Shown here: piece by piece, positions 41,160 to 51,123 of the stretch
Layout of the letters: each line of letters starts with the position of its first letter
Position numbering within the stretch: the stretch's first letter is position 1
Assembly: GCF_003258315.1 (NCBI RefSeq)
Contig: NZ_CP030032.1
Location: 2,705,804 to 2,769,803 of the forward strand
From: Bradymonas sediminis
GTDB lineage: Bacteria > Myxococcota_A > Bradymonadia > Bradymonadales > Bradymonadaceae
Direction: 5' to 3'
Length of the DNA stretch: 64,000 nucleotides
The notes under the pieces: model-generated
Database searches by the model: none
The model's input: only the letters and a program-made list of their open reading frames with translations
What the model was told of the DNA's origin: nothing
Program-made: the position numbers and the translations under genes

Positions 41160-43088
41160 TTAGCGCTCTCCCCGGCGACGGTCTTCCCCGCGGCCGTCAT
41201 TGCCACGGTCGGAGTGGCCGCTATCGCAGCGATGATGACCGTATCCATTGCCTTGATGCTCGCGGTGCCCGCGGCCCCGCTGGTTCCGATGACCGTCCTC
41301 GGAATCGCGCGGGCAACAGCGATGGTGACCATACCCATTGCCTTGATGCTCGCGGTGCCCGCGGCCCCGCTGGTTCCGATGACCGTCCTCGCAGTCCCAG
41401 TCCCAATCGCAACCGTCACTCCAGTCACCATCACAGTCGTCCCAATCATCGTCACACTCGTGATCACAATCGTCGTCACAATCATCATCACACTCGTGAT
41501 CGCAATTATCGCAACCATTGTCGCAGTCATCACAATCGTCGTCGCAATCGTCGTCACAACCGCTATCGCAGTCATCACAATCGTCGCTGCAATCGTCGTC
41601 ACAACCGTCGTCACAGTAATCGCAATCGTCGTCGCCGTTATCACCGCAATCGTCATCGCACTCGTGATCACAGCCGTCGTCGCAATCATCATCGCAGTCA
41701 TGGTCGCAATCGTCGTCGTCGCCATCATCACCGCAGTCGTCGTCGCATTCGTCGTCGCAGTCATGATCGCAATCGTCGCCGCACTCATGCTCGTGCTCAC
41801 AGTCCTCATGCGGAGGCGGCTCGCACTCGCCGTCACAATCCGGGTTGGGTTTGCACGCGCCATCGGCGCAGGCGCACCAGCGCGGAATCTCGACCCACGG
41901 GATGCGACATTCGGCGTAGTTCGCCTCGGTCGTAATATCCCCCGCGCACTCGACGATCTGAGCGATCAGCTCATCGATCTGGCACTGCGACCAGCGGAAG
42001 TTATGCGTGATATCAATGTCGCCGCCGACGTAGACCAGGCAGTCCAACTCGACCCTGGCCAATACCGGGTTGCGCACGATTTCCAAGAGGCCGCCGATGC
42101 TGGCGAGGTTCGGGGCGATCAACGCCCGAAGGCTGGGGTTATAGTGGACGTAGAACGCCCCACCGACCGTGGTCAGGCTCGGCAGGCACAGGTATTTCAG
42201 CCGCTGGCTATGCTCGAAAATAAATAGACCACAGACCTCCTCCAGGCACGGAAGAAGCAATTTGGTCAGGGCGTTCATGCCGGCGAAGATCATATCGCCG
42301 CCGACCTTTCGAAGACTCTCAAAGGAGACGGTGTGAACCTTCTGGTTATTAAAGACGTGAAGATTGCCGCCGGTCTCTTCGAGACAGTCAATCTTGACCG
42401 ATTTTAATTGCTGATTGCCTTCGATGACCAGGCCATCGCCGACATATTTAAGCTTCGGAAGACGCACATATTCGAGGACGGCATTGTCGCTGATCGTGAG
42501 ATATTTACTGACCGAGCGCAGCCCCTTCAGCTTGCTTAGGTTAAGGACGTCTTCGGTGTCCTGGATGAGGACGTGCCCCTCAACGTCGAAGCAATCGAGC
42601 CCCGCGTACGCGTCGAGGTCGGACGCCTCGTCGATAATGACGTCATAGCCGATAATCACACAGCCATCGCTGCCCGCCCCGGGATAGCTATTGCCCTCTC
42701 CCGAGTAGTCATTGGTCGGGGTCGGGTAGGGATTCCCCACGGGTGGAGAAGTCGGAGCGCCGGGAATCCGGGTGGGTCCATCCACCTCCCCGACCGGTGG
42801 CAGGCCCGGAAAACGGTCCCGGATATCAGCGGCCGGAGGCTGGTTGGGTCCCGGCACAGGCAATTCAAACTCGCTTCGCCCCACGCGCTCAGGATCGACC
42901 GCGAGGCGCGCCTCGGCGCCTGGCGAACCCGCGAATGTACGGTCTCCTTCAGGAACCGCCTGCGCCGAGCCTTGCGGCGATTGCTCCCCGAAACCATTGG
43001 CGTCACCGCAGCCAACCCCGGCGACCATGAGCAGCGCTACCAGCGATGCACACCACCCAGTCAGTACTCTTCGTCTTTGATGATTCAC
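41160..43088 (-). CDS. receptor-L-domain lipoprotein with Cys/Asp/His-rich tail
   Basis: From the GTG at 43088 the product has 642 residues. It has a basic N-region and a lipobox ending AGVGC, a Pro-rich spacer, then about 240 residues of leucine-rich-repeat-like receptor L-domain strands (YLTISDN, GLVIEGN, GGNLHVFNN, GGDIDITHN), and a C-terminal 230 residues of extreme bias: about 140 residues almost wholly Cys, Asp, Glu and His in CDDDCDHDC-type units, then two 30-residue Arg/Gly/His repeats. The tail suggests dense metal binding or disulfides; this is inference. The frame extends to an ATG at 43124, but gggggaaaac precedes the GTG and gives a canonical signal. Confidence 0.75.
   Translation of the reverse strand: MNHQRRRVLTGWCASLVALLMVAGVGCGDANGFGEQSPQGSAQAVPEGDRTFAGSPGAEARLAVDPERVGRSEFELPVPGPNQPPAADIRDRFPGLPPVGEVDGPTRIPGAPTSPPVGNPYPTPTNDYSGEGNSYPGAGSDGCVIIGYDVIIDEASDLDAYAGLDCFDVEGHVLIQDTEDVLNLSKLKGLRSVSKYLTISDNAVLEYVRLPKLKYVGDGLVIEGNQQLKSVKIDCLEETGGNLHVFNNQKVHTVSFESLRKVGGDMIFAGMNALTKLLLPCLEEVCGLFIFEHSQRLKYLCLPSLTTVGGAFYVHYNPSLRALIAPNLASIGGLLEIVRNPVLARVELDCLVYVGGDIDITHNFRWSQCQIDELIAQIVECAGDITTEANYAECRIPWVEIPRWCACADGACKPNPDCDGECEPPPHEDCEHEHECGDDCDHDCDDECDDDCGDDGDDDDCDHDCDDDCDDGCDHECDDDCGDNGDDDCDYCDDGCDDDCSDDCDDCDSGCDDDCDDDCDDCDNGCDNCDHECDDDCDDDCDHECDDDWDDCDGDWSDGCDWDWDCEDGHRNQRGRGHREHQGNGYGHHRCCPRDSEDGHRNQRGRGHREHQGNGYGHHRCDSGHSDRGNDGRGEDRRRGER
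41245..41391 (-). repeat. 90-bp tandem duplication at the 3' end of the L-domain gene
   Basis: A 57-base segment is identical at 41245-41301 and 41335-41391, a period of 90 bases or exactly 30 codons. It codes for the GHRNQRGRGHREHQGNGYGHHR part of the tail (in two pieces, GHRNQRGRGH and REHQGNGYGHHR). Confidence 0.9.
41400..41815 (-). repeat. low-complexity Cys/Asp/His-coding repeat
   Basis: Degenerate 9-12-base units of the types gtcatcacaatc and gtcgtcacaatc are strung together over 400 bases. On the minus strand they code for the Cys/Asp/His tract of the lipoprotein. The unit repeats likely expand and shrink by slippage. Confidence 0.85.
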
Positions 43089-43143
43089 GATGCGTTTTCC
43101 CCCATTGGAAATTAATAAATACAACGGTTCATACAGCGCTGTG

Positions 43144-43678: not shown

Positions 43679-45154
43679 TCAGCGGCAATCGACGCGCCTT
43701 GGCCGCCGCTGCTGGGTCTGAGCGCCACCGCCAAGCTGCCCATCTTGCCCGCGCCCCCAACACTGCAAATATCCACGCAGTGTCAGCCCACAGATATGGC
43801 GTCCGCCCGCACGAATCTCGCTAAACTCCAGCGCGCCTGCCGCCGGCGTTGGCTCAAGATAACTCGACGCGACGCCGTCGACGCCCAGGCTTCCCTGCTG
43901 ATTATCCCCCCAACAATAGACCCGCCCGCTGCCCCGCAGCGCGCAGGTGCGCGACCCTCCCGCTGTCACGCTCTTGAATAGCACCTCTTCGCCGGCCACC
44001 CGCGGATGCATCCGCGAGGTCGTGGTGCCGTCCCCTAATTGCCCCTGCTCATTATTGCCCCAACAATAGATCCGCTCCTGCTCGGTCAGCGCGCAGGTAT
44101 GCGCCGCGCCGGCCGACACCTGGGTCACATAGTCGGGAATATCTACCCAGGACGGCACATTAATCGCGTCAAAATCACCCTGCGCGGTCTGCCCGAAGTG
44201 GTTCGCCCCCCAGCAAAGCATGCGCCCGTCGCGCGTCGCCGCGCAGGCGTGGTCAGCACCAAGCGACAGATCCACAAAATCGAGCACCGCCTCAATCTCG
44301 ACGGCCCCGTCCACAGGCACCGACGTCCCCACGCCGAGCTGGCTATATTGGTTGCGCCCCCAGCAATAGACCTCGCCGGCGGTGCTCAGCGCGCAACTAT
44401 GGTCGGCGCCGCTGTCGACCTTGACGATATCGGCGTTGAGCTCAACGCGGGTCGGCGCGCTCACAAACGCCGCGCCCCCCGGAAGCGCCTGGCCGAAGTG
44501 ATTGTCACCCCAGCAATAGACCTGGGCATCGGCGCCCACCGCACACCCGTGCCCACGGCCCGCGCTGACCTGCCCGAGTCGAGCCTGCGTCGCCGGCCAT
44601 ACCCCTGTCGCCTCACCGCCCCCAAAGCAGCGCAACGCGCCCGCTCGACTGGTCACACAGGTCAAATCCCCGCGGGCGGCAAGGTGTCCGTCGGCATAAA
44701 TATTGTCGACGATGCCGTCGCAATCATCGTCGTTTCCGTCGCACATCTCGACGCCCTCATTTTGCGGCGCACACACACATTCATCTCCCTGCGCTGCAGC
44801 GTCACTCCCTTCCGCGCAGCGGTCTTTGCACCCGCTCGGATCGCCGCACCAACCCGACTCAAGTCGCTCACCCGGGCATCCGCCCTCACCCGAACACTCG
44901 GGCAGCACCTGCGGAAAGCCGGGGAGTCTCGGCAAACCGCCCTCCGACGCCCCCGGCCGCAGCGGGTCTCCCTCACGCGTCTCATAGGTGTCAGCGTCCG
45001 GCGAGTCGCCGTCCTCCTGCCCCTGCGCGACCTCGCCCAGGGACCAGGTCCGCTGGGCCGAATCATCAGTCATGCCGCACCCCGCCTGGCACCAAACGCC
45101 CAGCAACACGACCATCCAAACCCCCAAGAACCTGCATTTTATATGGATACACAT
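43679..45154 (-). CDS. RCC1-repeat lipoprotein with MopE-like motif
   Basis: The 491-residue product has a signal peptide and lipobox QAGC. A Cys-rich spacer carries the MopE-type metal-binding motif CDGNDDDCDGIVDN near residue 140. The rest (about 160-490) is a run of RCC1 repeats of about 50 residues (GADHSCALSTAGEVYCWGRNQYSQLG and alike; the core is the C-x-L-x(5)-V/I-Y-C-W-G pattern), building a propeller of about seven blades in which Cys residues add disulfides. Bacterial secreted RCC1 proteins are typical of Myxococcota and relatives, often as surface binding proteins. The start has aaggag 8 bases ahead. Confidence 0.85.
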   Translation of the reverse strand: MCIHIKCRFLGVWMVVLLGVWCQAGCGMTDDSAQRTWSLGEVAQGQEDGDSPDADTYETREGDPLRPGASEGGLPRLPGFPQVLPECSGEGGCPGERLESGWCGDPSGCKDRCAEGSDAAAQGDECVCAPQNEGVEMCDGNDDDCDGIVDNIYADGHLAARGDLTCVTSRAGALRCFGGGEATGVWPATQARLGQVSAGRGHGCAVGADAQVYCWGDNHFGQALPGGAAFVSAPTRVELNADIVKVDSGADHSCALSTAGEVYCWGRNQYSQLGVGTSVPVDGAVEIEAVLDFVDLSLGADHACAATRDGRMLCWGANHFGQTAQGDFDAINVPSWVDIPDYVTQVSAGAAHTCALTEQERIYCWGNNEQGQLGDGTTTSRMHPRVAGEEVLFKSVTAGGSRTCALRGSGRVYCWGDNQQGSLGVDGVASSYLEPTPAAGALEFSEIRAGGRHICGLTLRGYLQCWGRGQDGQLGGGAQTQQRRPRRVDCR

Positions 45155-45260
45155 CGCTCTACTCTCCTTGTCGATGATTGATATCAAAACCAGTGAGACC
45201 GCCGTTTCGGGTCTCACAATGGTTATCGACAGCGGGCGAGTATTCGTTGCCTTGGAGCGA

Positions 45261-45328: not shown

Positions 45329-47788
45329 TCACACCTGCTCAAGCGACGGCAGACCGTCGACCATGCGAAACTCGAGGGTGGCGTCGCGAAGGCCGGATTC
45401 GGCCGAGACGGTATTGGCGAGGATGGCAGTGATATGACTCTCGACCACCTGGCGCAGGGGACGGGCGCCGTAGCGCTCGTCGAAGCCCACGCGGATCAGG
45501 TATTCGATGACCGGGTCGGCCACGCGGACCTGGATATTTCGGCGCTTGAGCCCTTCGCGGCTCAAGGCCTCTTCGAGGGCGCGCTCGACCAGGCGGCGCG
45601 CGGTGCCGCGGCCCAGCGAGTCGAAGGCAATAATGCGGTCGATGCGGCCGACAAATTCCGGGCGAAAAAACGCCTCGACCGCGCTGCGGAAATGTTGGCG
45701 CTCGGCGAGCTGGCGCTTGGCGGCGGCGTCGGGCCCGGCGGCGTCAAAGCCAAAGGACTCCGGGCCCTCGCTGCCCAGGTTGGAGGTCATGATGATGACC
45801 GAGCCGGTCATGGAGACCGTTTGGCCCAGCGCGTCGGTGATTCGCCCCTCGCCCATGACCTGCAGGAGCAGGTCGAAGACGCTGGAGTGGGCCTTCTCGA
45901 TCTCATCGAGCAGGATGACCTGAAAGGGTTGCTCCCGCACTTTTCGCACCAGCGCGCCCTGCTCGCCCTTATAGCGCCCGACCAGGCGCGCGGCCGACCA
46001 GGGGTCCTGAAACTCGCTCATATCAAAGCGCACCATGCGCTCTTCGCTGCCGAATAGGTAGCGCGCCAGCGTCAGCGCGGTCTGGGTCTTTCCGACGCCG
46101 GTGGGGCCGAGGAAAAAATAGCTCCCGAAGGGGCGCTTCGGGGGATTGAGCCCGGCGCGAATCACCGCGACCAGGTCGACCATCGCGGCGACCGCGTCGG
46201 GCTGGTCGAAGATGGCATCGCCGAAGAACTTTTCGACGCGTGAGACGTCGAAGTCGGCGGCGGCGTCGAGCAATTCGCGCGGCAAGCCGGTCTGCGAGGC
46301 GAAGGCCTCGATGGCGTGCTCGGGCTGAAGTTCGGGGCGGTCTTCGCTCTCGGCCTGGACGCCGCGCGTACGATGGGTCCTGGCCATGCGCTCGGCCAGG
46401 TCAACCGCCGGCCCGGGATAGCCCGAGGCGTTCGGGAAGCGCCCGGTGAGCTCGATGATGCGCTGGCGCGTCGCGGCCGACAGGCGAACACCGTGCTCGC
46501 GCCCGAGGCGAAAGCTCACGCGCTCCAGCACCGCGTCGGTCTGCGCCGGCGACATCGCCTCGACCGGCAGCCGGCGCAGCGCGCGCAAAAAACTCGGCTG
46601 GCGCTGCTCGATATGGGCGAGCTGCTCGGGGCGCGCCTCGCTCACCAGCACCAGGTCGCCCGACAGAATATGCGGCAAGAGCAGCCCCGGGATTCCGTTG
46701 GCGTATTTTTCGTTGCCCGACGCCTCCAAAAGCTCGACCAGGTTGTCGGCGAATAAGATGGCGCCGGTGCGCCGCGCCTCGGCGATCACCTCGATCACCC
46801 GCTCCTGCCATTCCCCCAGGTAGCGCATCCCCGCCATCAGGCGCCCGCCGCTGATCTGCCAGACCTTGGTGTCCGACAAAGCCGCCACCGCGCGGGCGTC
46901 GCGCCCCTTGCCCTTGGCCGAGAGCATCCGCCCGACCGCGTCGTAGACGATGGCGGTCTTTCCGACCCCGGGTGGCCCGACCAGAAGAACACTTCGCTCC
47001 CACTCATCGGAGAGATAATTGAGCAAAGTGTCGACCTCGGCCTTGCGCTCAAACGCGCGCGGCGCGTCCTTTTTTGCCAGGCGTACGTGCAGCGGCTCAC
47101 CCACAGCTTCCAGGGTCGGCGCGGAGTTTTCCTGGTCATTTACTTGCACCGACGGCGCGGCTTCGATTCGGATCTTGAGCGGATATGCCTCGAAGGTGCG
47201 CTTCTCAAAGCGCGCGTCTGCGGCCAACTCCGACCCCTCGGCGGGCTGCAAAAACTCGGAGAGCTCATCGAGGCGTTGGTCGACCATATAATATTGGCAA
47301 AGGTGCTCGCGGATGGCCAACTCGAGTTGGTCGGTGTCGGCGACCTCGAATTGCAGCGGGACCTCGGGCAAAAAGACCTCCAGGTAGTCCCGAAAAAACG
47401 TCGCGCCATCGCCCTTGCCTGCCGGGTTCTCGCCGGGCTTTGGCGCCGACTTTTTGACCCAACGCGTGGCAACCAACAGGTTCAAAGTCGCCTGAAAAAG
47501 CCGACGCCGCTGCCCCACCGGGATGCTCACCTTCATGGTGCGCATCTGAATCGGGGGCTTGGCGGCCGCCTCTTTTTTTGCCCCACCCTGCTCCGACGAC
47601 GAGATATTATGCCGAAAGCGCCAGGGCTCGGCCTCGGCGACCTTCTCGACGAGCTGTTCCATGCGGTCCACCGCCTCCTCGGGCGTGTCCGCGACCGCCG
47701 CCAGCGAGTCCTCGCCGAAGAGATACGCGGTGGTGCGATGAGGGCGGATATCCAGCACGATATCGAGTTCGAGGAAATACAGGCTCAT
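45329..47788 (-). CDS. Hsp100-like double AAA+ ATPase (smaller of the pair)
   Basis: The 819-residue protein resembles ClpA/ClpB/ClpV ATPases with two AAA domains. NBD1: P-loop GPPGVGKT (271-278), pore loop AGMRYLGEW (319-327, Tyr323 kept), but the Walker B reads ILFADNL, with Asn349 in place of the catalytic Glu. NBD2: GPTGVGKT (561-568), intact VILLDEIEKAH (624-634), FRPEFVGRID arginine-finger region (708-717), and the closing GARPLRQ sensor-2 motif. The usual GYVG pore loop of NBD2 is replaced by GRYKGE. The N-terminal 240 residues are not the Clp N-repeat. No middle ClpB-type coiled coil is visible. It overlaps its partner gene by 4 bases. No ClpP-binding IGF loop was found. Confidence 0.82.
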   Translation of the reverse strand: MSLYFLELDIVLDIRPHRTTAYLFGEDSLAAVADTPEEAVDRMEQLVEKVAEAEPWRFRHNISSSEQGGAKKEAAAKPPIQMRTMKVSIPVGQRRRLFQATLNLLVATRWVKKSAPKPGENPAGKGDGATFFRDYLEVFLPEVPLQFEVADTDQLELAIREHLCQYYMVDQRLDELSEFLQPAEGSELAADARFEKRTFEAYPLKIRIEAAPSVQVNDQENSAPTLEAVGEPLHVRLAKKDAPRAFERKAEVDTLLNYLSDEWERSVLLVGPPGVGKTAIVYDAVGRMLSAKGKGRDARAVAALSDTKVWQISGGRLMAGMRYLGEWQERVIEVIAEARRTGAILFADNLVELLEASGNEKYANGIPGLLLPHILSGDLVLVSEARPEQLAHIEQRQPSFLRALRRLPVEAMSPAQTDAVLERVSFRLGREHGVRLSAATRQRIIELTGRFPNASGYPGPAVDLAERMARTHRTRGVQAESEDRPELQPEHAIEAFASQTGLPRELLDAAADFDVSRVEKFFGDAIFDQPDAVAAMVDLVAVIRAGLNPPKRPFGSYFFLGPTGVGKTQTALTLARYLFGSEERMVRFDMSEFQDPWSAARLVGRYKGEQGALVRKVREQPFQVILLDEIEKAHSSVFDLLLQVMGEGRITDALGQTVSMTGSVIIMTSNLGSEGPESFGFDAAGPDAAAKRQLAERQHFRSAVEAFFRPEFVGRIDRIIAFDSLGRGTARRLVERALEEALSREGLKRRNIQVRVADPVIEYLIRVGFDERYGARPLRQVVESHITAILANTVSAESGLRDATLEFRMVDGLPSLEQV

Positions 47789-50700
47789 TCGGACTCCAGC
47801 GAGGCGTTCTCAAAGTTCAGGGCGAGGCGCTCAAAAACCAGGCGCTTCGCGAAATCCGACGCGTTCGCGCGCGCCGGCGGCAAGGCGCGCCGCGTGGCGA
47901 GCCGAGGTTGGCTAAGCTGGCTATTTTCAAGGACAAATTCGACATCAAAACGCTCGCCAGGCGTCGCGGAATCCTCGCGCGCCTCGAGGTGCCGAAGCAG
48001 CAGCGAGTTCTCGGAACTGCCTGCAGATTCGGCGCTCAAGAGCGCCAAGCCATGATGGCCGTGCGAGGCCGGCATCGGCGCCCACATATAGCCGGCGAGC
48101 GCCTCAAACGCGGCGCGGATGCCCGGGTGCTCGGCCGAAAATGCCAGCGCGGAGACCTGCGCGAGGTCGGCGCCGGCCTCCTTCCACCCATCGCTCGTCC
48201 AGGCGGCTTCGGCCATATTGATATTTAGCCCCTGCGCCAGCGCGCGCATCCACCGCTGCCAATGGGCGAGGATATCGGCGGTGTTGCCCGACAATCCCTC
48301 GACGATCAGCGTGGCCTGGTCGGCGGGAGCGGCGGCCAGCGAGAGCGCCTGCGTGCGCGACCAACTCAGCTCTCCAAAAATCTGGTCGACCAACTCATTC
48401 CACCGGTGCAATCGGGGCTTATCGAAGCTCTCGAGATCGGGCATCTCCCAGGCGCCGGTTTGCTCCGGGTCCACCAGCCCCTCGATGCGCTGGCGAAGCT
48501 CGCGCAGGCGCTGGCGGAAGATCTCGCGCTGGCGCACGCGCTCGGCGATCTCGTGGGCGAGCGGCTCGTCGCCAAGCTGGGCGCCGTTAGCCGCACGCGC
48601 GTTGAGCTCATTGAGCGCCTCGACATAATCACGGTCAACCTGCGCGCGTTGCGGGCTGGCCTCCAGCGCCTCAAGTCCCTGGATCAGGTATTCCAGGCGC
48701 GTTTGCAGGCGATCGGCTGCGCCTTCGAGTGAGTCGCCGTCGCTATGATCGACGAATAACTCGACGCCAACGGGCCGAAGTTCGACCCGCGCGGCTTCGT
48801 TTAATTGCAATAATTTCAGGTCCAATTCGCCGACCCCGTCCACACCGAGCAGCGCGCGAGTCAGGCCCTTCTTATTCGGGTCATGCCCGGCGAGCATGCG
48901 CGCCAGGGGCGTGATGAGGCGTTGCTCGATGCGATGCGAGAGCGTGCGCGCGCCGTAGCGCCGGTCGACGGTATCGCCCACCAGATGCTCGACGAGGCGC
49001 CGGTCCACGTCGACCATCACCCGCCCCTGCCGAAGCCCGCGGCGCTCCAACAGCTCGCGCAGCGTGCGCTGCGCGATGCGCTTAAGCGTGCGCGCCGACA
49101 GCGGCTGATAGGGAATCACCCGGTCGATGCGATTGAATAGCTCCGGGCGAAAAAACTGCTGGGCCGCCCGGCGATAATGTAATTGGCGATCCTTCTCAGA
49201 GGTCGGGCTAAACCCAAGCCAGCGGTCTTCGGAGCCCGCGCCGAGGTTCGAGGTCATCAACACCACGGTGTTGGAGAAGTCGACGGTTCGCCCCGCCGCG
49301 TCGCTCAGGCGACCGTCGCCCAGAAGTTGCAACAATAGGTCGAGCGCCATCGGGTGAGACTTTTCGATCTCGTCGAAGAGCAGCACGCAAAAGGGCTGAA
49401 TGCGCACCCGGCCGGTCAACTCACCATCGGGCTCATGGGTCGTGCCGATCAGCCGCGTGCTGGCCGACGCCTCGCTGAACTCACTCATATCAAAGCGCAC
49501 CAGGCGGTCGCGCCCGCCGAAGAGATCTTCGGCCAGGGCCTTGGCCGTCTCGGTCTTACCGACGCCGCTGGGGCCGATGAGCAAGAAGCTGCCGAGCGGG
49601 CGTTTGGGGTCGCATAAGCCCTGCTCGGTCGCCACGATCAACGCGCTCAGCACCTCGGTCGCCTGGGGCTGGTCGAATACCCGACTGACGAACGCGCGCT
49701 CCACCTCGGCCGGCTCACGCCCCTGGCCTGGCACGAGCAATCGCATGGGCAAACCGGTCTGGCGATGCACCACCTCGGCGACCCATTGCGGGTCGATGCG
49801 CACCTCGTATTCGGAGGCATCGCTGAGTTTTCGCACGCCGGCCGAGAAACACTGGCGCGCCAGGCGAATCGCCTTGCCGGGGAATGCCTCCTGGCGAAAA
49901 TAACGCGCCGAGAGCCGCACTATCGACTCAACCGCGTCCGGGGTAAATCGCACCCGCTGCTGGGCCTCAAGCGCGCGCACCAATTCGTTGAGGATGGTGA
50001 TGGTCGGGTCGGCCTCGAGCGCGGGCACCTGAATCCGACGGAAGCGATCGACGAAGCCCGCGGCCTCGCCGCGCGCCGCCTCAAAGGTCGCCTCGGTCGC
50101 CTCGGCGATCACGCTAAAGCGCCCCTGCTCCAGATACGGTTCGATAAAGCGCGCGACGCTCGAATCGCCCTGATAGGTTCGGCCCGCGCGCACAAGCCCG
50201 AGCAAATCATCGACGGCGAGCACGTCATTTCGGGCCTCTAACTCGCTGCAGAGCGCCTCGGCGCGCTGCTCCCACTGCCCGATGATGCTCATGCCGGCGA
50301 TGATCCGGTCGCCGCTGGTCTGCCAGATATCGCGCCGCTGCTGGTAGGCGCGCTGCATCTCCAGCGTCTGGCGCGCGGCCTCCTCGATCAGCGCGCTCTT
50401 GCCGGCGCCCTTGGGCCCGACCAGGCAGATATGCGACGCGCGCTCGGCGGTCATCACCTCGACCAATTCGTCGATGATCTCCTGGCGCCCGTAGGCGCGC
50501 CGAAGGCTCTTATCATCGGCGTGATGGGTGAGGTTTGTCGCGACCTTCGACAGCGCTTCGGGTCGGCGCATGCGGCCCGCGGGGCGATCTTCGTCATCGT
50601 CGCGCGAGTCCACCGACGGGAAGCCAAGATCGACCTCAATGGTCTCCATGCGCGCGGGATACTCCGCGGTGAGCACCGAAAAATCACTGATATGATTCGC

Positions 50701-51123
50701 CTCAGCCCATTGCTCCGCCCACGCGCACAGCCCCTCATAGACATCGTCCATGCGCTCCACGGCGAAGCAGGCCCCGGGCAGCAGCGGAATCCACACATGA
50801 ATCAGGTCATCGCCGGGCAGACGCCCCGCGATCACGTGGGTCCACGTGCCCATGCGCACCGGCGGGCGATCGGGGTCGATGCGCCGATGCAGGTCCACCC
50901 AAAAATTGAGCATCTGCGGGTTCTTCGGCCCCAGCAGGCTGTGCAGATCCCCGGGCGCGATGCCGCCATGCACCATCTCAAGCGCCCGAAACATCAGCTC
51001 TTCTTTGAGCCGCGCGGGGCTGCTGCCCTCGACCGGATGCGCGAGCAAATTAACCCAGGGGATGGACGCACGAAAATGCCCCTTCTGGGGCTGAGCGACG
51101 TAAATTGAGAGCGTGAGTTTCAC
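47785..51123 (-). CDS. Hsp100-like double AAA+ ATPase with C-terminal extension (larger of the pair)
   Basis: The 1112-residue protein is a paralogue of the downstream ATPase. NBD1: P-loop GPKGAGKS (236-243), Walker B VLAVDDL (Asp306 where Glu is usual), and MSIIGQWE in place of the aromatic pore loop. NBD2: GPSGVGKT (517-524), intact VLLFDEIEKSH (580-590), FRPELFNRID (658-667), RYGARTLSHRI sensor-2 (722-732). NBD2 lacks the GYVG loop. The first 200 residues are unique. After NBD2 about 340 residues follow: a coiled coil (795-890) and a domain (about 935-1065) that resembles, weakly, the PCRF domain of class I release factors. It is the promoter-proximal gene of the two-gene operon. Confidence 0.82.
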   Translation of the reverse strand: MKLTLSIYVAQPQKGHFRASIPWVNLLAHPVEGSSPARLKEELMFRALEMVHGGIAPGDLHSLLGPKNPQMLNFWVDLHRRIDPDRPPVRMGTWTHVIAGRLPGDDLIHVWIPLLPGACFAVERMDDVYEGLCAWAEQWAEANHISDFSVLTAEYPARMETIEVDLGFPSVDSRDDDEDRPAGRMRRPEALSKVATNLTHHADDKSLRRAYGRQEIIDELVEVMTAERASHICLVGPKGAGKSALIEEAARQTLEMQRAYQQRRDIWQTSGDRIIAGMSIIGQWEQRAEALCSELEARNDVLAVDDLLGLVRAGRTYQGDSSVARFIEPYLEQGRFSVIAEATEATFEAARGEAAGFVDRFRRIQVPALEADPTITILNELVRALEAQQRVRFTPDAVESIVRLSARYFRQEAFPGKAIRLARQCFSAGVRKLSDASEYEVRIDPQWVAEVVHRQTGLPMRLLVPGQGREPAEVERAFVSRVFDQPQATEVLSALIVATEQGLCDPKRPLGSFLLIGPSGVGKTETAKALAEDLFGGRDRLVRFDMSEFSEASASTRLIGTTHEPDGELTGRVRIQPFCVLLFDEIEKSHPMALDLLLQLLGDGRLSDAAGRTVDFSNTVVLMTSNLGAGSEDRWLGFSPTSEKDRQLHYRRAAQQFFRPELFNRIDRVIPYQPLSARTLKRIAQRTLRELLERRGLRQGRVMVDVDRRLVEHLVGDTVDRRYGARTLSHRIEQRLITPLARMLAGHDPNKKGLTRALLGVDGVGELDLKLLQLNEAARVELRPVGVELFVDHSDGDSLEGAADRLQTRLEYLIQGLEALEASPQRAQVDRDYVEALNELNARAANGAQLGDEPLAHEIAERVRQREIFRQRLRELRQRIEGLVDPEQTGAWEMPDLESFDKPRLHRWNELVDQIFGELSWSRTQALSLAAAPADQATLIVEGLSGNTADILAHWQRWMRALAQGLNINMAEAAWTSDGWKEAGADLAQVSALAFSAEHPGIRAAFEALAGYMWAPMPASHGHHGLALLSAESAGSSENSLLLRHLEAREDSATPGERFDVEFVLENSQLSQPRLATRRALPPARANASDFAKRLVFERLALNFENASLESE

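Follow-up and report, generated by a model that had tools for sequence, protein, structure and literature searches.

In the window, which is the whole 64,000-nucleotide stretch of Bradymonas sediminis DNA analysed here, two large Clp-like genes, termed P2 and P1, lie in tandem on the minus strand and are joined by an ATGA stop/start overlap (Table 1). The four-base overlap and the two AAA domains per protein had been predicted from the sequence alone, and both hold: Pfam assigns AAA, AAA_2 and ClpB_D2-small to P1 as well as P2. The original prediction overlooked the C-terminal domain of P2 (~370 residues), the N-domains shared by the two proteins and a third subunit, P3, encoded at a distance in the same genome.

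Table 1. Features of the P2-P1 pair and associated genes of the host genome. Positions refer to the window, except those prefixed G000:C1, which refer to the host genome.
Feature	Position	Strand	Description
P2	47785..51123	minus	1112 aa Clp-like ATPase; first gene of the pair, middle of the P3-P2-P1 set
P2 N-terminal domain	50569..51123	minus	~185 aa; homologue of the P1 and P3 N-domains
P2 NBD1	49834..50556	minus
P2 NBD1 pore loop	50272..50298	minus	AGMSIIGQW; Tyr lost
P2 NBD1 Walker B	50200..50223	minus	VLAVDDLL; catalytic Glu replaced by Asp
P2 NBD1 sensor-1 strand	50089..50112	minus	VIAEATEA; extra Glu
P2 NBD2	48883..49806	minus	Walker A, Walker B, sensor 1, FRPELFNRID and sensor 2 intact
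P2 NBD2 GYVG region	49411..49455	minus	GYVG absent
P2 ClpP-loop tripeptide	49210..49218	minus	LGF, residues 636-638
P2 C-terminal domain	47788..48891	minus	release-factor-like, residues 745-1112 (~370)
P2/P1 overlap	47785..47788	minus	ATGA, stop/start
P1	45329..47788	minus	819 aa Clp-like ATPase; second gene of the pair, without C-terminal extension
P1 N-terminal domain	47114..47788	minus	~225 aa
P1 NBD1	46364..47071	minus
P1 NBD1 pore loop	46808..46834	minus	AGMRYLGEW; Tyr kept
P1 NBD1 Walker B	46736..46759	minus	ILFADNLV; catalytic Glu replaced by Asn
P1 NBD1 sensor-1 strand	46625..46648	minus	LVSEARPE; extra Glu of the family
P1 NBD2	45389..46333	minus	motor motifs intact
P1 NBD2 GYVG region	45944..45988	minus	GYVG absent
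P1 ClpP-loop position	45746..45754	minus	FGF, residues 679-681
P3	G000:C1:3376642-3379977	minus	third subunit, distant from P1/P2
ClpP gene	G000:C1:4063225-4063770
ClpP gene	G000:C1:3483907-3484449

The two rings of these proteins have fared differently. Several features read from the letters are borne out, namely the loss of the catalytic Glu from the first Walker B (ADN in P1, VDD in P2), the NBD1 pore-loop Tyr that is kept in P1 only, the intact second Walker B (LLDEIEK in P1, LFDEIEK in P2), which is accompanied by an intact Walker A, and the lack of GYVG in either protein. These features extend to the family: the first Walker B Glu is found in only 2/115 relatives, compared to 16/16 canonical Clp proteins scored identically, whereas a Glu beside sensor 1 of NBD1 is present in 109/115 relatives but in 0/16 canonical proteins. 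Present where the Walker B Glu is gone, this sensor-1 Glu possibly compensates for it. The second ring retains its Walker A and Walker B motifs in essentially all of the 115 relatives. However, the NBD2 GYVG motif occurs in 0/115 relatives versus 16/16 canonical Clp proteins, and the corresponding stretches of the pair read RLVGRYKGEQGALVR and RLIGTTHEPDGELTG. Given these counts, the loss of the first Walker B Glu and of GYVG is not due to chance.

The original prediction had also denied the pair an IGF-type ClpP loop, and on that ground a role as a ClpP cap; this argument falls, because a hydrophobic-Gly-Phe tripeptide lies at the docking position, between sensor 1 of NBD2 and FRPEF, in the context WLGF in P2 and SFGF in P1. 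The tripeptide of P2 matches the docking-loop pattern [LIV]-G-[FL], whereas that of P1 agrees only with the relaxed form x-G-[FL]. Family-wide, G-[FL] occupies this position in 38/39 P2, 30/34 P1 and 31/41 P3 relatives (99/114 in total), and both ClpB proteins of the host genome lack it. The host encodes two ClpP proteins, as do most family genomes; a ClpP dedicated to the set was rejected, since the presence of two ClpP genes does not depend on the set.

The N-domains of P1, P2 and P3 (~190 residues) are homologous to one another, with a profile-profile probability of 95-97 against 1 for the reversed control. They found no trustworthy match in Pfam or PDB profile searches, and an initial idea by eye that they are HicB-like gained no support from either. 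The predicted absence of Clp N-repeats was upheld, as Clp_N is not among the 25 best Pfam families listed for the proteins, and the N-terminal fragments alone gave no such match up to an E-value of 10.

The claim that P1 and P2 are coupled holds across the genomes tabulated, and a third paralogue, P3, has to be added to the pair. A phylum-wide search with P2 showed that its orthologues adjoin further Clp-like genes, and the loci inspected have the order P3-P2-P1. In the family, P1, P2 and P3 co-occur in the identical 10/21 genomes and are all absent from the other 11, a pattern that by itself may not represent many independent events, as close relatives may share one loss of the set; one weaker P1 match, in G146, is a different paralogue of 878 aa. 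All eight further genomes, from Planctomycetota, Saprospiraceae, Chitinophagales, Enhygromyxa and others, encode P1, P2 and P3 once each, even on different contigs; one of the eight is a partly cut metagenome-assembled genome. All three genes are likewise present, though unlinked, in the host, other family members, Planctomycetota, Saprospiraceae and others. Moreover, a scan of 284 Myxococcota genomes revealed many more tandem triplets; those inspected comprise two long genes with a tail of ~310-560 residues followed by a short gene, which itself has a ~280-residue tail in a few lineages. Altogether, P3-P2-P1 operons occur throughout Myxococcota, and the set is found in other Myxococcota, Planctomycetota and Bacteroidota with one of each gene per genome, as an operon or unlinked. 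Because the set is complete in three phyla, with one of each gene even when scattered, it probably does something that these bacteria need.

The tails resemble bacterial peptide-chain release factors. P3 tails match RF2 in profile-profile comparison with an E-value of 3e-14 and a probability of 98 (reversed control below 1), and RF2 is the top match among PDB sequences for a profile of P3-type tails. In Pfam they give a weak PCRF match, with one orthologue exceeding the cut-off (25.2-28.1 bits). The structure was predicted for one P3 tail (L128; pLDDT 67, pTM 0.61): all 42 Foldseek matches of this model in the PDB at E<=0.001 are release factors, and it superimposes on RF2 with a Z-score of 13.2 over 229 residues. 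The P2 tails are strongly diverged. They match RF1/RF2 with a probability of 87 and the P3 tails with 96, and RF1 provides the best PDB matches of their profile (E 0.0037). P2 tails of the home family alone give a release-factor match not above the control, the signal emerging only with the wider set, and the structure model of the host P2 tail (pLDDT 48) is too poor to use. The fold of release-factor domains 1 and 2 is thus recovered for the P3 tail, and for the P2 tail at the profile level only. The host P1 has no tail; tails of five P1 proteins from other genomes match release factors with a probability of 96.

Most P3 tails (31/41) retain the ExGxH motif. By contrast, GGQ occurs seven times in 85 tails, always outside the correct context of the catalytic motif, and no SPF stop-codon motif is found in context in the tails of P1-P3, nor, by inspection only, PxT. 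The tails mostly have 90-120 residues after ExGxH, compared to about 170 in RF2, as expected if the GGQ domain has been lost. The P3 and P2 tails are derived from a bacterial release factor and have lost its stop-codon and GGQ motifs, the evidence for this ancestry being weaker for the P2 tail than for the P3 tail. The loss of SPF and GGQ precludes release-factor activity of the tail. In addition, two single-gene Clp proteins, L053 (2926-5877; prfB match 6e-22, PCRF 3e-14) and L032 (1372-4170; PCRF 3e-13), are fused to an almost full-length RF2 whose GGQ region has decayed, and lack the N-domain of P1-P3. These two may show the ancestral Clp-release-factor fusion.

From the three-gene set, its motif losses and retentions and the release-factor ancestry of its tails, all of which are observed, we infer one mixed complex, a translation target and a partnership with ClpP. 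We tentatively propose, as the reading towards which we lean, that P1, P2 and P3 would be three subunits of one mixed Hsp100/Clp-type machine that is powered by NBD2, is attached to the translation machinery by its tails and possibly feeds ClpP. The NBD1 ring would hold bound nucleotide and is probably slow or silent, serving mostly as a structural or regulatory ring, and ATP hydrolysis in NBD2 would be the motor. As the NBD2 pore loop is gone, the polypeptide would be gripped by the NBD1 pore loops, through Tyr/Phe in P1. The tails lie on the same side as NBD2, which is also the face expected to receive ClpP, and would most likely anchor the machine to ribosomes or to a partner in translation. 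There it would remodel or extract proteins, which might be passed to ClpP via the retained hydrophobic-G-F loops.

The main rival to this translation-tethered machine, itself quite possible if on balance doubtful, keeps the same three-subunit Hsp100 and takes the tails as repurposed into plain protein-interaction or assembly modules unrelated to ribosomes. The loss of the stop-codon and GGQ motifs and the strong divergence of P2 tails agree with it, and so does the gene neighbourhood: no conserved neighbour tying the set to translation was seen in the loci compared, nor a non-Clp gene family beside the set that is shared beyond close relatives, with gene calling being rough in these high-GC loci. 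Nevertheless, the release-factor core with ExGxH persists in P3 tails over very distant phyla, and the solo relatives retain an almost complete RF2, both of which count against this rival. A connection to other rescue systems was discarded as well, because NFACT (21/21 family genomes) and ArfB-like short genes (5/10 genomes with the set, 9/11 without, showing no clear trend) do not track the set. Anti-phage defence was likewise rejected, since PADLOC matches span only the ATPase stretch of NBD2.

The translation-tethered machine could take the form of a ribosome-quality-control motor, a joint reading that we consider rather unlikely. The three-subunit Hsp100 would dock on stalled or idle ribosomes via a catalytically dead release-factor mimic, pull out or remodel proteins there and hand them to ClpP. 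With the same low likelihood, this would make the set a convergent counterpart of Cdc48 with Vms1 of eukaryotic ribosome quality control, which pairs a double-ring AAA+ ATPase with a release-factor-like protein (PMC6514570). The parallel is functional only, as Vms1 is a separate protein of the unrelated eRF1-type fold and Cdc48 is not a Clp.

It is also conceivable, though improbable, that P1, P2 and P3 form separate homohexamers acting in one pathway with no mixed ring. Indeed, a complete NBD2 motor, an arginine region and an N-domain are found in each of the three, but one of each gene is retained even when unlinked, the operon order is conserved, and the decay of the NBD1 motifs has taken a different course in each protein, as is common for mixed-ring subunits. 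A mixed hexamer would be plausible. However, the system as first read, in which two ATPases form a mixed hexamer whose sole role is to remodel a partner, with no disaggregase or ClpP-cap function, is very improbable: the coupling of the P1/P2 genes and the absence of GYVG from both would suit it, yet P3 always accompanies the pair and the ClpP-loop tripeptide is present.

That the proteins are diverged but otherwise ordinary representatives of one of the named Clp families (ClpV, ClpB, ClpC or ClpA) is barely credible: their Hsp100 domain order and best general matches (ClpA, ClpB, ClpV and ClpC for the pair, with ClpC best in the PDB) point that way, but their scores reach only about one third or less of the curated cut-offs, and they form a clade apart with other N- and C-domains. 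Against the ClpB cut-off of 1232 bits (NCBIfam TIGR03346), P1, P2 and P3 score 307, 327 and 354 bits; against 993 for ClpA (TIGR02639), 294, 328 and 344; and against 885 for ClpV/TssH (TIGR03345), 221, 309 and 279. In a tree of 133 rows covering the NBD1-NBD2 region, built by a quick method with no bootstrap, all members of the set form one clade apart from the 16 canonical Clp proteins included (SH-aLRT 100). The P2 types, two Bacteroidota genes among them, form a group with a support of 98, whereas the P1 and P3 types each cluster strongly in a few blocks. The predicted position outside the named clades is thereby supported. The system had further been called little described, and full-text literature searches, mostly of papers outside subscription, returned no description of it.

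Compared to ClpC/ClpA, the set shares two AAA+ domains, the NBD2 motor motifs and the hydrophobic-Gly-[Phe/Leu] at the ClpP-docking position, but lacks the Clp_N repeats, the first Walker B Glu and GYVG, and possesses another N-domain, a release-factor-derived tail and three co-conserved paralogues. Like ClpV/TssH of type VI secretion, it is a specialised Hsp100 that belongs to neither the disaggregase nor the protease class; however, it stays at 221-309 bits on the ClpV model, and no secretion genes lie beside it in the loci compared. With RF1/RF2, the P3 tail has in common the fold of domain 1 and part of domain 2 and ExGxH, but it is ~70-80 residues shorter after this motif, has neither SPF nor GGQ in context and is fused behind a double-ring ATPase. 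Release-factor folds have been recruited to other roles in prfH, baeRF-1 and other offshoots, and the release-factor survey by Burroughs and Aravind does not mention Clp proteins (PMC6514570). A Clp unfoldase and a translation release factor, two machines not known to be fused, are joined here. If the proposed machine is real, it would be the first Hsp100 that requires three distinct subunits and has an inherent link to translation, and it becomes testable whether a dead release-factor tail brings an unfolding motor to the ribosome.

Besides P1-P3, the host genome encodes one more Clp-like paralogue, about 919 aa long (L007; G000:C1:541530-543410), which has lost the first Walker B Glu (MTN), lacks GYVG and has a VGF loop. 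Proteins of 870-939 aa resembling it (L023, L024 and L030) are found in family genomes without the three-gene set. Directly downstream of P1, the window encodes a secreted-looking protein with RCC1-like CWG repeats (43679-45217, minus strand), for which no conserved link to the set was seen. A further minus-strand gene (41160-43124) encodes a protein with a long C-terminal run rich in Cys, Asp and His that by eye has a metal-binding look.
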